Assembly: GCA_016200325.1 (NCBI GenBank)
Contig: JACQEZ010000003.1
Coordinates: 1-64,000, forward strand
Source: Candidatus Manganitrophaceae bacterium
GTDB lineage: Bacteria > Nitrospirota > Nitrospiria > SBBL01 > Manganitrophaceae
DNA: 64,000 bases
Direction: 5' to 3'
The first letter of the stretch is position 1; each line of letters opens with the position of its first letter. The notes beneath the pieces were generated by a model. That model was not told where the DNA came from. It saw only the letters and a list, made by a program, of their open reading frames with translations, and did no database searches. Both the position numbers and the translations under genes were made by a program. Shown one piece after another: positions 53,550-59,933 of this stretch.

Positions 53550-54419
53550 TTAAGAGGCCACCGATACGTTGATCGGATTCAGGTCGGTCTTCTCCCCCAG
53601 AACGGGGACCCACCCCCGCTTCGGAAGATAAAGGTAGAAGCGCTTCTCCTCCGGGTCGAGGGCGATCAGACGGACCCATTCATTGTCGAAATAATGCTGG
53701 AGAATCTTATGGCGACGGATGATCTGGCCGATCTGCTCCCGTGAGCCTTCGATCAGACTCAGCATCCGGATCGGCTCATGATACGGCTGCTCCCCCTTTA
53801 ATACCGTCTGCGCGGCAAGCCCGACCCGCAGATCGCTCTGGGGTCCCGACATGACGCCGAGCCGGCCGACGACGTTATGATAGATCTTGCTTCCGCTGCC
53901 GTAGATCTCGTTATCGACCGTCGAGAAATAGTGCTCCATGTTGATCCATTGGCCGACCACCAGCGGGCCGGTCATCAGAATCTCCAGCAGCCGGCCGCTG
54001 GGATCTTCGCGGGGATCGTAGGACTGGAGAAAAACCCGCCCCTCTAAATCAATCTTTCGGGTCAGCTCGCGTCGGCCAATAATAAACGCCGCGTTACCCG
54101 ACAATCCCCACTCCGGCCGGACCTGGCTCCAGTCGCCGCTGCGGCGATGGACCTCCCGGGCCGATTGCGCCCGCGGCAAGAGCGATTCGATCTCCGGGAA
54201 GCGGGCGCAGCGCTCCCGGCTGTTTCGGAGGCCGGCCTCCTCCAGATCATCCATCAGCCGATGGAGATCCATTCGGTGGGTCTGAGGCAGGTCCTCCAGA
54301 TCGACGAGCTCGATCTCGTCGGTGGTGGTGTTGTGCTCTCCGGCGATGAAATAGGTATCGGCCGGAATCACAATCCCGTTTTTGGCGAGCCCCTCCCGGA
54401 CGAGCGGCCGATTCGCCAT
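53550..54419 (-). CDS. dabA: DabA C-terminal part (after a frameshift)
   Basis: The frame that ends at 53550 carries the C-terminal part of DabA. It can be read upstream past the ATG at 54419 to about 54550 as FARLVLLCGHGSASENNPFE AALDCGACGGNSGKPNARVF. It contains the second pair of zinc ligands (His in CGHGS and Cys in DCGACGG) and the typical end (TTDEIELVDLEDLP; ...IYHNVVGRLGVMSGPQSDLR VGL). Translation from the internal ATG at 54419 would lack these ligands. Together with the upstream frame it makes one gene of about 1140 codons, 53550-56974. Confidence 0.85.
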   Translation of the reverse strand: MANRPLVREGLAKNGIVIPADTYFIAGEHNTTTDEIELVDLEDLPQTHRMDLHRLMDDLEEAGLRNSRERCARFPEIESLLPRAQSAREVHRRSGDWSQVRPEWGLSGNAAFIIGRRELTRKIDLEGRVFLQSYDPREDPSGRLLEILMTGPLVVGQWINMEHYFSTVDNEIYGSGSKIYHNVVGRLGVMSGPQSDLRVGLAAQTVLKGEQPYHEPIRMLSLIEGSREQIGQIIRRHKILQHYFDNEWVRLIALDPEEKRFYLYLPKRGWVPVLGEKTDLNPINVSVAS

Positions 54420-56974
54420 CGCCGCGAAGACCCGCGCGTTCGGTTTTCCCGAGTTGCCGCCGCAGGCGCCGCAGTCGAGCGCCGCCTCGAACGGATTGTT
54501 CTCCGACGCGCTCCCATGACCGCAGAGGAGGACCAGCCGGGCGAAGTTTCGGTCAGCCCCATCAATCGCAACGCCGTCTCCACGGTGAAGAGCTGCTCTT
54601 GAAGGGTGAAGCCGGTCCGGGTAATCCGCTCCATCCGCGCGAAAAGCCCGCGCCGGTTGATCTGGTAGCGGGTGCGGAGCGTTTCGATGAAGGCGTTCTC
54701 CTCTTCAGCCGAGAGGGCATAGCGACGGGGGGGGGCTGCCGTCGGCGGCATTGGATCGGTTTCATCCAGGGCCCGGCGGCGCAACGCCTCGAGCCGCTCG
54801 AGGGAAAGGTTTAGATCGCGCTCACCGAACTCCTGCTGCAGCGCCCGGCGGATAATGCCGCGCTGTTCGGCGGCGATCATCTCCTCGACCTCCTTCCGGG
54901 TCAGCTTGTCGATCGTCAGAGAGGTCGCGATGGCGGGGGCGAGGGCATGCCGAAGGCGTTCGGTCAGGTTCCGATACCAGGCGGTAAAGACGGTCTTCCC
55001 GATGAGCGGCAACGCATAAAACCAGCCGACCGATTCGACCACGACATACGGGGTGACCACATTTTCCTTCAGATCGACCAAGAGCTGATGCGCTGTATGG
55101 AGGAGATGGTTCCCCGAGAGATAACGGGAGAGGCGCCGCCCCTGATAAGGCCGGTGGAGCTCCCGGACCAGATTTTTCGCCTTCATGATCACCGGGAACT
55201 GATCGGTCTCATGATGGCTTCCAAGCCCTTGGTAGCGGATGAAGACGGTGAAGAACCCGGCAAAGCCGAACGTCTCATAATCGCCGACCCCTTCCAACTG
55301 CCGCCGGAACGGCTCAGAGCGGACATCGATACAAAAGACCGCTTGGGCCTGGGGGCGGATCATCAAAGGGGCTTGCGTCGCCGGCGATTCAATGGGGTGG
55401 CCCGCGCGGTTCGCTTTTGGCGAATCCTCCGATGCCCCCACACCCCGCGCTCCGACGGGCAGAGCCCGATCCTCGCTGACCGACGAAGCCGCATGCGCCT
55501 CCCCCTCGGCGCTCGCGTTCGCTCGCGGGCTTAAGATTTCCGACGCCATCAGCTTGTTCAAGAGCTGATCTTGGTAGCCGGCTTCGAGCGCTTTTAACCA
55601 GACCGGTCCCTGTTCCGATTCGGGGAAGGCGTCAATCCAATCGAGCAGCGTCTTTAGGGCCTCCGGCGGCGTTTCCAGGAGGGAGGCCGGATCAATCGCG
55701 AGGGCGTTCGTGAGGGTTCGCAGGCGCAAGGCGGCCGCGCGCCGGACCGCGAGGTCATGGCCGGCGCCGTATTCCGCGGCATACGCTTCGGCGAGGCGCT
55801 CCCACTGATCTTCTTGCATCTCCGGGGCGCCGCCGGCCGCGCGCAGCCGATCGACCTTCTCGGTATAGTCGGCCGGCAGACGGCCGGCGACCCGCGCCCG
55901 CCGGAGAAAATAGGCCCCCGGCCGGCGTTGCAGGTAGGCCGAGAGGGCGTCGACCGTCCCGGCGATTCCCAATTCCTCCCGGCACTGTATCTCAACCAGT
56001 TCCCGGACATACCAGAGGCGGACGGCGAGGTATTGCGTCAGGTCGGCCGGATAAGCCTGCTGCCATTCATAATCGGCCTGATCGGCGCGCCATTTGATGA
56101 ACCCGGTCCAACCCGGCAGCGCCGCCAGGTGCAGCGTGAGGTACTCCTGCCAACTCTCCGACGGGATGCCGAGGGCGGTCAAGCTCTCGAGCAACGCATC
56201 TTCCGGCTCCTCCGGGAGAGCGGCGATCTTCCGGCGGGCGTCCGGAATTTCGCAGGGGGACCATTCCATCGCGGCGAGCGTTTTCCAGGCAAGATAGAAT
56301 CCCTTCTCCCGGCCCGGCATCGGCCAGGCGGCCTGGCCTTCATCCAAAAAGGCGCCGCACCATTTGACGATCTCTCCGTTGATCTGCTCCGTAATCCCGC
56401 CGCCCAAAACACGGTCGCACCAGGTCGACGGGGTCACCCGCAGCACCAACGCCGCCCGGTCGGCCTCGGCCTCAGCCCGCATCGCTTCGAGAAGCGATGG
56501 CGGCTTCAGCACGGCGCTCAGACGGCCGGCCAGCGCATCGATGAAAGATCGGTCCGAGGAGCGGTCGATCATCAAATGGAGGGTCTCTTCCTCCGGAATG
56601 GCGGCCCCGCCGATTCCATCGACCAAACAGGCGCGCAGCACCTGCGCATGGCTAAGATGATATTGCCCGACCGCCACCTGTTGGTCGCGGGTCGACGGTT
56701 TCAAGGCGGCGTCGATCTGTTGCGGAAGAATCCGGCCGGCGCGGAGATATTCCCGATAGCGCTCGGCGGCAAGATATCCTTTCCCACCGAGGAACTGATT
56801 GCCGAGTTCGACCGCCTCTTCAAAGGGGAGATGCTCCAGGCCGTGGAGCGGATTGTGATGGACAAAGTTCCGCATCGGCCAATAATGCGCGATGACCTCG
56901 CTGGAGAGCCGAATCAGCCCGCGGAGGCGCATCCGGTCGGTATCGCTGTAAGGTGTCTCTTTTATTTTTTCCAT
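54368..56974 (-). CDS. dabA: DabA (DUF2309) inorganic-carbon pump subunit, N-terminal part, frameshifted
   Basis: The gene starts at ATG 56974 (weak AGG upstream). It encodes the beta-carbonic-anhydrase-like subunit of the DAB bicarbonate transport complex. The family start YWPMRNFVHHNPLHGLEHLP FE and the zinc ligand pair C548-x-D550 in FCIDVRSEPFRRQL are present. Near 54545 one T seems missing: the frame changes from LRLMGLTET to an unrelated tail ending at 54368, while the next frame continues with FARLVLLCGHGS. A foreign-looking in-frame repeat occupies residues about 484-538, ten residues before C548. dabB lies 49 bases upstream and the PII-like gene downstream. Confidence 0.88.
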   Translation of the reverse strand: MEKIKETPYSDTDRMRLRGLIRLSSEVIAHYWPMRNFVHHNPLHGLEHLPFEEAVELGNQFLGGKGYLAAERYREYLRAGRILPQQIDAALKPSTRDQQVAVGQYHLSHAQVLRACLVDGIGGAAIPEEETLHLMIDRSSDRSFIDALAGRLSAVLKPPSLLEAMRAEAEADRAALVLRVTPSTWCDRVLGGGITEQINGEIVKWCGAFLDEGQAAWPMPGREKGFYLAWKTLAAMEWSPCEIPDARRKIAALPEEPEDALLESLTALGIPSESWQEYLTLHLAALPGWTGFIKWRADQADYEWQQAYPADLTQYLAVRLWYVRELVEIQCREELGIAGTVDALSAYLQRRPGAYFLRRARVAGRLPADYTEKVDRLRAAGGAPEMQEDQWERLAEAYAAEYGAGHDLAVRRAAALRLRTLTNALAIDPASLLETPPEALKTLLDWIDAFPESEQGPVWLKALEAGYQDQLLNKLMASEILSPRANASAEGEAHAASSVSEDRALPVGARGVGASEDSPKANRAGHPIESPATQAPLMIRPQAQAVFCIDVRSEPFRRQLEGVGDYETFGFAGFFTVFIRYQGLGSHHETDQFPVIMKAKNLVRELHRPYQGRRLSRYLSGNHLLHTAHQLLVDLKENVVTPYVVVESVGWFYALPLIGKTVFTAWYRNLTERLRHALAPAIATSLTIDKLTRKEVEEMIAAEQRGIIRRALQQEFGERDLNLSLERLEALRRRALDETDPMPPTAAPPRRYALSAEEENAFIETLRTRYQINRRGLFARMERITRTGFTLQEQLFTVETALRLMGLTETSPGWSSSAVMGARRRTIRSRRRSTAAPAAATRENRTRGSSRRWRIGRSSGRGSPKTGL
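55366..55532 (-). repeat. In-frame coding repeat, copy 1 (inside dabA)
   Basis: About 167 bp encoding ANASAEGEAHAASSVSEDRA, LPVGARGVGASEDSPKANRA and GHPIESPATQAPLM. Its head (CGCGAGCGCCGAGGGGGAGG C) and tail (GGCGACGCAAGCCCC) match copies 2 and 3 in dabB. It splits DabA just before the conserved RPQAQAVFCID segment, without disturbing the frame. Confidence 0.88.
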
Positions 56975-57023
56975 AAGCCTGTTTTGATTATCTAGGTTTG
57001 TTTATCTCGTTTTTAATTTTGTC

Positions 57024-59933
57024 TTATTTATAGGGGGCTCGCGTCGCCCCCTCATCCGATAAGATCGGATGAGCCTCCCCTTCAACGCTCGCGGTTGCTC
57101 GCTGGGCTCTATTCATAGGGGTTTGCGTCGGCGACGATTCAATGTGGAGGCCCGTGCGGTTCGCCTTCGGTGAATCCTCCGATGCCCCCACGCCCCGCGC
57201 TTGCACCGGCAAAGCCGATTGCTCGCGTCCCTGCTCTGCAGAGAGTGCCTCCCCCTCGGCGCTCGCGGTGCTCGTTGGATTGTCGAGGGAGATTGTCGTC
57301 GTGCGATCCAGGTTTATGGCCGCGTTGATCTCGGTAGCGGGTGGCGGGGGTAGCGTCTCCGCCGGCCGGGTTGTTTCAAAGAAGCCATACGGGGCGAGGC
57401 CGAGGATTAGGAGAAGCAGCAGGGCGGTCGCCAGCGAGGCGGTCTCGGCGCGGGAGAGATCGGTGTAGGGGATTCCCGGGCGGTGCGGTCCGAAGAGGAG
57501 GCGCTGCATCAGGTTGAGGAAGAACCACGAGGCCGCCAGCCAAGTTAGCAGGATCACGGCGAGGTCCCACGACATCGGGACCGACCGGTTGAACAGCAGC
57601 TCGATCAACCCTGAAAAAAGTCCGAAGGGGGGAAGGCCCATCGCGGCGGTCACCAGGAGCGAGAGTAAGAGGGCGAAGCGGGGCATCGGCCGCGCCAGCC
57701 CGCCGATCCGGTTCAGATCGAGATTTCCGTAACGGAGCTGGACGACCCGCCAGGCGAGGAAAAGCCCGCCGGTGATGAGCGAGAGGGCGCTGACATAGAC
57801 CGCCGCCTGCGGCGTGTCGGCCGCCGCGCCGGCGAGATACCACCAGAGAATTGACGCGAAGGCGACGCCGGCGTAGGCGATCAGCCGCTCGACCCTAAAT
57901 TGCGCCAGCGCCTTGATCGTTCCATAGACGGCGCCGAACAGGGCGAGCGCGCGGACGGCGCCGAGCAGCTCCGGCGACATCCCCGAAAGAAGCCCCTGGA
58001 TTGCATAGAATCCGGCTATCGGCATCAAGACGGCGAGGAGCGCCGGGAAGACGCCGGTCAGCCGGGTCAGCGCCGTCACATAAAGCCATTGCAGCGGAAA
58101 GAGCGGCAGGAGGAGGGCGGCCATCGAAAAGAGGACGATGCTTGTGAAGGAGAGCTCACCAGCGCGATCGGCGGCCGGGAAGAGCCGGACCAACGCCACC
58201 ACCAGCGCGACTCCGGCCCAGATCCATCGGAGCGGGCTTTGATCGATCCGGCGCACCCGATTGGTCAGTCCGCGTCCGAGTCGGGCATAGAGCGCCTCGA
58301 GATAAAGCCGGTTCATGAAAAGGATGTAGAGACGGACCTGAAGCGCCTTGGCTGCTTTCGGCACCGGGATCGTTCGGCCGTGGCTCCTCGCGTAGATCAC
58401 ACTCCAGCCGGAGATGATCCCGAGCGCGATCGCCACCACCAGGGTGTCGAAGAGCCACGCCGGCAGGTGGGCCGCCTGAAAGTAGGCGAGCGCTTCGCCC
58501 GGGGCGGGATAAAGAAAGTCGGTGAACCGCTCCGCCGCGAAGAGGTAGGTCACCACGACCAACAACAGGGTGAAGAGCATGATCGACGCCACCTTCCACG
58601 AGGAGACCGCCCGCAACCGGTAGAGGGTGAGGATCGCCTGGGACGAGGTGACCCAGCTGAAGAAGAGAAAGATCACCGCCCCCTGTGAATCGATCAGCGG
58701 GATTCTGAGCGCCCCATGCGCCGCGAGTAAGATGATCAACGGGAAGAGCAGCGTAATCAGAAAGCCCGCCCCCCAGGTCAGCCCGGAGAACTCCTCTTCC
58801 GGTTCGGTCACTTCCTCCGGGTGGTCATGGGGTGGATGTCTCGGCTCTTGCCGGGCGGCATGGATGACATGGCCGCTGTCCAAGAAGACGGTCGCCTTGA
58901 AGAGGCCGTGCGCGATCAGGTGGAAGATCGCCAGCGCGAAGCCGCCGAGCCCGCACTCCATGATCATGTAGCCCATCTGCCCGATGGTGGAGTGGGCCAG
59001 TGTTTTTTTGATGTCGTTCTGCGTCAGCATCATCGTCGCCCCGAGCAGGGTGGTGAGGAGCCCGATCGCCAAGGCGAAATGGAGGGTGGCGGGGCTCTGG
59101 CCGTAGAGCGGGGCGAGCCGGTTCAAAAGAAAGCCGCCGGCATTGATGATCCCGGCATGGAGCAGGGCGGTCACCGGGGTCGGGGCATAGAGGTTTCCCG
59201 GCAGCCAGATGTGCATCGGAAACTGGACCGACTTGCTCATCGCGCCGACGAAGATCAGCAGGGTAATCAAGGTCGGCGCGCCGATCGACCACCCGGGCCA
59301 GAGCGAAAAGCGCTCCGGCGTCTGGGCGGCGGCATTGATAAAGAGCTGCGGAAAGTCGAGCGTGCCGTAAACGCGGTAGGCGAGGACGACCCCGGCCAAG
59401 AAGGCGACATCGCCGATCCGGAGGGTGGTGTAGGTCTTCGTCGCCCCCTGGAGCGTCTGGGGGTGGCTATAGTGGTGCGAGAGGAGGTAGAGCATCCAGC
59501 TGATCAGCTGCCAGAAGATAAAGAGCATCATGAGGTTTTTGCTGGCGACCATGGAAAGGAGGATGAAGATCAGCAGGGCCAACAGCGTGTGGAACCGGGT
59601 CCGCCCCCGCTCCTGTTGCATGTAGGAGACGGAGAAGAGGGAGATGAGAAAGCCGATGGCGCTGACGAGCGTCAGCATGACGGCGGCGAGGCGGTCGATG
59701 TAGAGGCCGAACTGCAGCGCGCCGCCCCAGGCGGAGGAGAAGATCGGGACGTCGATCGGACCGTTCCCGGCGACTTGCTTGAGCGTCCAAAGAGAGACCG
59801 CGAGCGCCACGGCCTGCGCCGCGGCACTGATCCGATAGGCCTTCCGTCCGAGGGCCCCTTCCAGCAGGCCGTTGACTCCGGCCGCCGCGAGCGGCGCCAG
59901 CAGGATCAGCAATGGGTAGTAAGCGACCGTCAT
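57024..59933 (-). CDS. dabB: DabB (NuoL-like) proton-channel subunit with NuoM-like extension and repeat tail
   Basis: 969 residues, ATG at 59933 with GGAGG three bases upstream. The N-terminal ~560 residues are a Proton_antipo_M/NuoL-type membrane domain (LYIDRLAAVMLTLVSAIGFL, FVGAMSKSVQFPMHIWLPGN, APTPVTALLHAGIINAGGFL, GATMMLTQNDIKKTLAHSTI GQMGYM). After a linker a second NuoM/NuoN-like unit continues (ERLIAYAGVAFASILWWYLA, VTAAMGLPPFGLFSGLIELL). Usual DabB proteins are about 550 residues, so this is a fusion. The last 80 residues (from about 890) are two copies of an in-frame repeat also found in dabA. DabB and DabA together energise bicarbonate uptake. It heads the operon. Confidence 0.9.
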   Translation of the reverse strand: MTVAYYPLLILLAPLAAAGVNGLLEGALGRKAYRISAAAQAVALAVSLWTLKQVAGNGPIDVPIFSSAWGGALQFGLYIDRLAAVMLTLVSAIGFLISLFSVSYMQQERGRTRFHTLLALLIFILLSMVASKNLMMLFIFWQLISWMLYLLSHHYSHPQTLQGATKTYTTLRIGDVAFLAGVVLAYRVYGTLDFPQLFINAAAQTPERFSLWPGWSIGAPTLITLLIFVGAMSKSVQFPMHIWLPGNLYAPTPVTALLHAGIINAGGFLLNRLAPLYGQSPATLHFALAIGLLTTLLGATMMLTQNDIKKTLAHSTIGQMGYMIMECGLGGFALAIFHLIAHGLFKATVFLDSGHVIHAARQEPRHPPHDHPEEVTEPEEEFSGLTWGAGFLITLLFPLIILLAAHGALRIPLIDSQGAVIFLFFSWVTSSQAILTLYRLRAVSSWKVASIMLFTLLLVVVTYLFAAERFTDFLYPAPGEALAYFQAAHLPAWLFDTLVVAIALGIISGWSVIYARSHGRTIPVPKAAKALQVRLYILFMNRLYLEALYARLGRGLTNRVRRIDQSPLRWIWAGVALVVALVRLFPAADRAGELSFTSIVLFSMAALLLPLFPLQWLYVTALTRLTGVFPALLAVLMPIAGFYAIQGLLSGMSPELLGAVRALALFGAVYGTIKALAQFRVERLIAYAGVAFASILWWYLAGAAADTPQAAVYVSALSLITGGLFLAWRVVQLRYGNLDLNRIGGLARPMPRFALLLSLLVTAAMGLPPFGLFSGLIELLFNRSVPMSWDLAVILLTWLAASWFFLNLMQRLLFGPHRPGIPYTDLSRAETASLATALLLLLILGLAPYGFFETTRPAETLPPPPATEINAAINLDRTTTISLDNPTSTASAEGEALSAEQGREQSALPVQARGVGASEDSPKANRTGLHIESSPTQTPMNRAQRATASVEGEAHPILSDEGATRAPYK
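57031..57106 (-). repeat. In-frame coding repeat, copy 3 (short form, dabB 3' end)
   Basis: About 76 bp coding RATASVEGEAHPILSDEGAT RAPYK. It keeps the head and tail of the element but lacks the central SEDSPKANR part. A hairpin CTCATCCGA / TCGGATGAG (57051-57073) sits inside it. Confidence 0.7.
57117..57278 (-). repeat. In-frame coding repeat, copy 2 (dabB 3' part)
   Basis: About 162 bp coding ASAEGEALSAEQGREQSALP and VQARGVGASEDSPKANRTGL HIESSPTQTPM. The segment GAATCCTCCGATGCCCCCAC (+ strand) is identical to copy 1, and the flanking 26 bases differ at only a few positions. The middle (EQGREQS vs SSVSEDR) is the most divergent part. Confidence 0.88.

Follow-up and report, generated by a model that had tools for sequence, protein, structure and literature searches.

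How did the same repeat come to lie, in frame, in two adjacent genes of a carbon-uptake pump, in one of them ten residues from a zinc site? The question is raised by contig JACQEZ010000003.1 of a manganese-oxidizing Candidatus Manganitrophaceae bacterium (GCA_016200325.1; group Ca. Manganitrophus, labelled G000 here), of which we analysed a stretch of 64,000 nt, referred to below as the window. An earlier note on this DNA had proposed three copies of a single mobile coding element, comparable to the palindromic elements of Rickettsia (RPEs). As far as we are aware, it is chiefly in Rickettsia and Wolbachia that mobile peptide elements inserted in frame have been described.

Results

Repeats within dabA and dabB

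The genes concerned are dabA (54368..56974, minus strand; an 868-aa open frame with Pfam domain PF10070) and dabB (57024..59933, minus strand; 969 aa, NuoL-like, with a Proton_antipo_M domain), which encode a carbon-uptake pump; in the solved DabA2, C351 and D353 are zinc-site residues (PMC13144422). The repeats are real: direct repeats of 155 nt, 79% identical, occupy 55363-55517 and 57113-57267, a third copy of their outer, flanking unit lies at 57024-57106, and every copy falls in frame within the open frames of DabA and DabB. The shared heads and tails described earlier were recovered, but in place of one element there are two nested families, with an element A placed inside an element B; heads and tails are alike and middles are not because copies 1 and 2 are B interrupted by A, whereas copy 3 is intact B.

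The features, all on the minus strand, were delimited with covariance models of A (R1) and B (R2). dabA is interrupted by an A-in-B composite, in which the two-hairpin unit A (55389..55479; R1, 80 bits, E 1.6e-16; peptide SEDRALPVGARGVGASEDSPKANRAGHPI) splits B into a 5' part (55480..55528; partial R2 match at 55474-55526; CGCGAGCGAACGCGAGCGCCGAGGGGGAGGC...) and a 3' part (55363..55388, assigned by sequence; ATCGCCGGCGACGCAAGCCCCTTTGA); at the place of this 5' part, sister species have tandem B without interruption. The dabB tail is made up of a second composite followed by an intact B, and the repeats supply the C-terminal ~85 residues of DabB. Here A (57139..57229; R1, 89.8 bits, E 1e-18; peptide REQSALPVQARGVGASEDSPKANRTGLHI) separates a B 5' part (57230..57278; weak R2 match at 57210-57278, and sequence) from a 3' part (57113..57138, by sequence), and the intact B (57025..57105; R2, 93.1 bits, E 2e-24) codes the last DabB residues and the stop codon.

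The DabA insert spans residues ~484-538 and ends ten residues ahead of C548-x-D550, as previously described, and this pair aligns with C351/D353 of the solved protein. The tolerance of an insert so close to the zinc site is less surprising than was thought, since the linker that receives it is variable by nature among DabA homologues. An AlphaFold2 model built from 19 sequences for the frame-truncated protein gave low confidence over residues 481-664 (mean pLDDT 61.9, pTM 0.50), which agrees with a disordered insert rather than demonstrating one.

In the window the dabA frame holds up to residue ~809 and then breaks at a short A-run near 54560; a pseudogene or a sequence error may lie behind the break. 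Beyond it, the C-terminal portion runs on in a different frame (53550-54419). The dabA of sister species G004 (locus L145) also seems to be frame-broken, near residues 207-222. Tolerance of B in the linker is independent of the window copy, because B is in place in the long open dabA frames of G002 and G005; tolerance of A in DabA, by contrast, does depend on the frame-broken dabA of the window.

Fold and coding content of A and B

Alignment of 15 copies defined A as a unit of ~91 nt with two RNA hairpins: hairpin 1, with GCGAGC arms, is followed by the linker GCGGGGNGU and by hairpin 2 (HP2), GGGGGC-A-UCGGAGGA ... CCGNACGGGCCCCC-ACAUA. Element B, of ~80 nt, has three hairpins, which covary, in the arrangement CCAGCGAGC.A..GCGAGCG..GAGGGGGAGGC-hairpin-GGGGCGACGCAAGCCCCUAUAA. 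The covariation of HP2 is strong. Its core, AUCGGAGGA/ACCGNACGG, is invariant, with compensatory changes, in genomes labelled as three phyla; across 39 sequences from these, 97.4% of cells are paired, both sides had changed in 33 cells against 7.9 +/- 2.1 after shuffling, and the covariation score was 0.218 against 0.096. The slid control favours the fold, which was derived from the same 39 sequences, and kinship can beat shuffles; but compensation is visible in pairs such as GC20/CG7/UA6/AU2, and three independent pairs display several pair types. What is conserved in A is the folded strand, not the peptide.

The consensus ends of A, AAAGCGAGC and CCCCACAUAUAAA, bear no inverted-repeat relation to each other, and no clear terminal inverted repeats were found. 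Flanks are A-rich, and a target duplication, or short direct flank repeats, is hinted at weakly by the strings that they share (mean 3.9 vs 3.64 +/- 0.11). Two copies of A, C19:233781-233893 (L044) and C15:21392-21504 (L049), have an extra insertion of ~20 nt, CAGGGTGGRACACTGGATGT, in hairpin 2, which the Lhr-site copy of the sister species does not have; these two copies may show nesting at a third level, or may form a subfamily.

Each of the six frames of A is open in most copies (53-67 of 75). In one sense frame A codes a hydrophilic linker (..SED.ALPV.ARGVGASED.P..), and the coding copies in this genome, one each in dabA and dabB and two in an Lhr-type helicase gene, all four read in that one frame (..ALPVxARGVGASED..); B codes ANASVEGEAH..EGATQAP. 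Selection for a hydrophilic linker that does no harm could account for the shared frame, the cases numbering just four. A is not mainly a coding repeat, as these are the only four coding copies among its 28 in this genome.

Copy number and distribution

Genome-wide counts of both elements are counts among the matches listed. A blastn search of the genome with the 171-nt copy gave 16 matches at E<=0.004, mostly to the inner part only, and R1 gave 28 copies of A at E<=0.003, the weakest of them, C11:252401, being doubtful. The number of matches far exceeds chance. The core of the earlier proposal, a dispersed, RPE-like mobile element that inserts in frame, is borne out by these searches and by homologues without the insert, and the alternative that the repeat occurs nowhere else in the genome falls. 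When B alone was the blastn query, the genome yielded no second copy.

Among the matches listed, A is present in all five sister species, at 13-23 copies each, and in 23 of 58 relatives, with 122 copies in G021. B occurs in 26 of the 58 relatives and reaches 55 to at least 80 copies in other families; within the genus it is found almost only at the dab locus, among the matches listed. This near-restriction, set against its abundance in other families, suggests that B arrived together with the dab locus. A model of HP2 (R3), run over 396 Nitrospirota genomes with only 14 candidates per genome scored, so that absences carry little weight, gave 15 positive genomes. When named genomes were scanned for an exact pattern, there were further matches in metagenome-assembled genomes (MAGs) titled Deltaproteobacteria and Myxococcales, with 4-31 R3 copies per genome, these phylum labels being those of the record titles. 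One of the genomes, G063, has its tRNA-Arg/Ser/Ser order in common with Manganitrophus and may be misnamed or mixed.

Several arrangements were recorded in passing. In Myxococcales MAGs, copies of A stand head-to-tail in tandem at a spacing of 90-96 nt (L247 7483-7746, L224 4128-4240). G020 holds ~28 near-identical composites with A antisense inside B (L064, L085, L090 and others), several of them at contig ends, suggesting recent amplification. The Ca. Manganitrophus plasmid CP114558.1 carries A in sense 2 nt past the stop codon of a cobalamin gene (L372 2501-2596), as part of the cobalamin operon. Carriage by phages was rejected, as neither phages nor viral contigs gave a match to the repeat. 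At E<=5, Rfam 15 returned host riboswitches, tRNAs and marginal matches elsewhere only, and no family for A or B; a survey of the open-access literature brought up no account of such a repeat.

Filled and empty sites

At the DabA insert site, G002, G005 and G003, of the same genus, carry B twice in tandem but not A, and G041, of another family, has a single B. DabA of G004 and of most other homologues has a short linker and no insert, so that a conserved segment present in all homologues, which the earlier note had raised as an alternative, is excluded; in G004 an A-in-B composite sits instead in the spacer ahead of dabA. The dabB C-terminus of G002 and G005 is itself coded by two B units. Since sister species thus have the same B-B tandem in both places, local copying between the dabB tail and dabA is likely, and the dabA insert may have come from the tail in this way rather than by independent transposition.

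The Lhr-type helicase gene contains its two in-frame copies of A in this genome and in G003, and both positions are clean empty sites in G002, G004 and G005. Ahead of rplC, the spacer carries A in G000 and a decayed remnant of it in G002, and is empty in G005. The sites ahead of rpsS, rplF, rpsN, tmRNA and tRNA-Ser are kept within the genus, and with so many A sites in common the current activity of the element is probably low.

Position and orientation of A

Most copies of A in this genome lie just ahead of start codons, tRNAs or tmRNA. Copies stand 2-8 nt before the genes for tRNA-Ser, tRNA-Lys, tRNA-Arg and tmRNA, and no copy lies within those genes. Three copies are in riboswitch loops or aptamers: a cobalamin riboswitch has a 116-nt insert in a hairpin apical loop, a c-di-GMP-I-GGC aptamer has a 102-nt insert in its P3 loop, and of two tandem c-di-GMP-I aptamers the second bears A at the P3 loop while the other has a normal GAAA loop, a placement read from the sequence because the Rfam alignment of the aptamer omitted the insert. 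Tandem cobalamin (L043 1424-2044) and tandem c-di-GMP-I (L045 1565-1825) riboswitches were each seen with A in one aptamer of the pair.

The bias was quantified over 239 kb of G021, in stretches picked for holding copies and not for their orientation, with genes from a simple in-house caller. Of 35 copies, 26 were intergenic (19% expected); 25 of these 26 were in sense to the next gene (p 4e-7), and 20 of the 26 had a start codon at most 45 nt downstream in the same sense (12% expected, p 5e-14). Exceptions are some antisense copies of A, including those inside B in G020.

Discussion

We consider it probable that A and B are small mobile elements, non-autonomous and folded as single strands, that are tolerated at permissive sites. 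They would spread, as do RPE, ERIC or BOX repeats, through an activity supplied in trans. Their usual landing places would be A-rich pockets a short way ahead of ribosome-binding sites and of the 5' ends of RNA genes, and the copies retained would mostly be those that put the element's own strand into the transcript. The permissive sites would be the gaps between cistrons, the apical loops of riboswitches and flexible linkers in proteins, because a unit that folds by itself would be tolerated wherever an independent hairpin or a loose linker is harmless. Tandem units of B at the dab locus would have become the dabB tail and the DabA linker, and A would later have inserted into B in this species. 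We infer that the inserts in DabA and DabB are close to neutral, and that selection keeps sense copies. No mobilizer of A or B was found, and Y1 transposase genes do not track A.

The two families are large and, it appears, previously undescribed, and they resemble several known systems in part. The coding palindromes of Rickettsia, Wolbachia and Methanocaldococcus, of ~100-150 nt, are both intergenic and in frame in unrelated protein genes, and some RPE-type palindromes occur in RNA genes such as those for tmRNA and RNase P RNA (PMC2229807, PMC10969869). Compared with RPEs by description, A and B are likewise folded and in frame in unrelated genes (DabA, DabB and two sites in Lhr), with empty homologous sites for DabA and Lhr; but an RPE forms a single long palindrome bounded by inverted repeats of ~12 bp, whereas A has two successive hairpins and B three, without clear terminal inverted repeats, only about one in seven copies of A here is coding, A is strongly placed in sense before start codons, and A and B nest. 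As regards RNA genes, A lies inside riboswitch aptamers and before, but not within, tRNA and tmRNA genes. ERIC, Correia (NEMIS) and RUP repeats are also small, structured, intergenic and cotranscribed, and the effect of ERIC on transcript stability is orientation dependent (PMC2229807); these repeats have terminal inverted repeats and a target duplication; here no terminal inverted repeat was seen in the consensus, and the flanks gave a weak hint of short A-rich repeats. Pneumococcal BOX elements, again compared by description, are modular, structured and transcribed, and one copy lies between two T-box riboswitches (PMC3049150), unlike A, which interrupts an aptamer, within its apical loop. 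REPINs are hairpin-forming extragenic mobile DNA (PMC3116915), and A and B differ from them in having no association with RAYT genes. For known repeats of this type, the open-access papers surveyed give no report of a sense bias close to start codons.

A functional RNA explains the strong bias in position and sense and the core common to the labelled phyla no less well than a selfish repeat does. A could primarily be an RNA module that acts in cis, whether mobile or duplicated, and is kept ahead of genes because it governs the translation, processing or stability of the RNA downstream, with its coding copies accidental; we regard this main rival as possible but less likely. Its sense orientation 0-30 nt from starts, tRNA and tmRNA included, the invariant HP2 core with its compensatory changes and the ribosomal-protein, tmRNA and tRNA-Ser sites kept within the genus all argue for such a role, but the downstream genes have no common pathway, copies also occupy coding frames and riboswitch loops, the distribution is patchy, and one sister species has an intact rplC with no A ahead of it. 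We propose only tentatively that A is a mobile module with a fold conserved across phyla that acts on the processing, stability or initiation of downstream RNA, and it is with similar reserve that we picture it installing itself in sense before start codons, tRNAs and tmRNA at up to more than 100 loci per genome. The same bias (25 of 26 in sense although antisense frames are open too), together with the inserts in loops of structured RNAs, would also fit mobility at the RNA level, by a ribozyme-like or reverse-transcriptase route into transcripts and then back into DNA; selection is a simpler account of the bias, antisense copies exist, if few, A is antisense to B in G020, and we think this route very improbable.

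Movement by a RAYT or Y1 transposase of REPIN-like or IS200/IS605-derived units is unlikely, even though the paired hairpins, the small size, the Y1 genes held by many of the genomes and one B near a Y1 gene in G020 are in its favour. A is present without a Y1 match in G001, G003, G004 and G005, four of the six genus genomes; 18 Y1 regions are almost free of both elements, with B in the stretch in only two and a weak A in one; and the strand bias goes with genes. The transposase was therefore rejected as the driver. A purely local duplication, or a conserved DabA/DabB linker with no mobile element, is the reading to which we give least credence. B in the genus is at the dab locus only, among the matches listed, and the dabA and dabB copies are alike, so local copying probably contributed; but A is dispersed over unrelated loci (28 copies), B is dispersed in other families and most DabA homologues are without the insert, and chance or a local linker alone was rejected on these grounds.

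If A and B are indeed mobile elements, then in-frame mobile peptide elements exist in Nitrospirota that live freely, are matched by clean empty sites in sister species, and are further distinguished by two nested families, inserts within riboswitch aptamer loops and a start-proximal sense bias. Should A prove instead to be a cis-acting module, it would at once regulate as an RNA, extend loops and supply proteins with new segments. It becomes possible to test whether repeats of this kind are selfish or domesticated.
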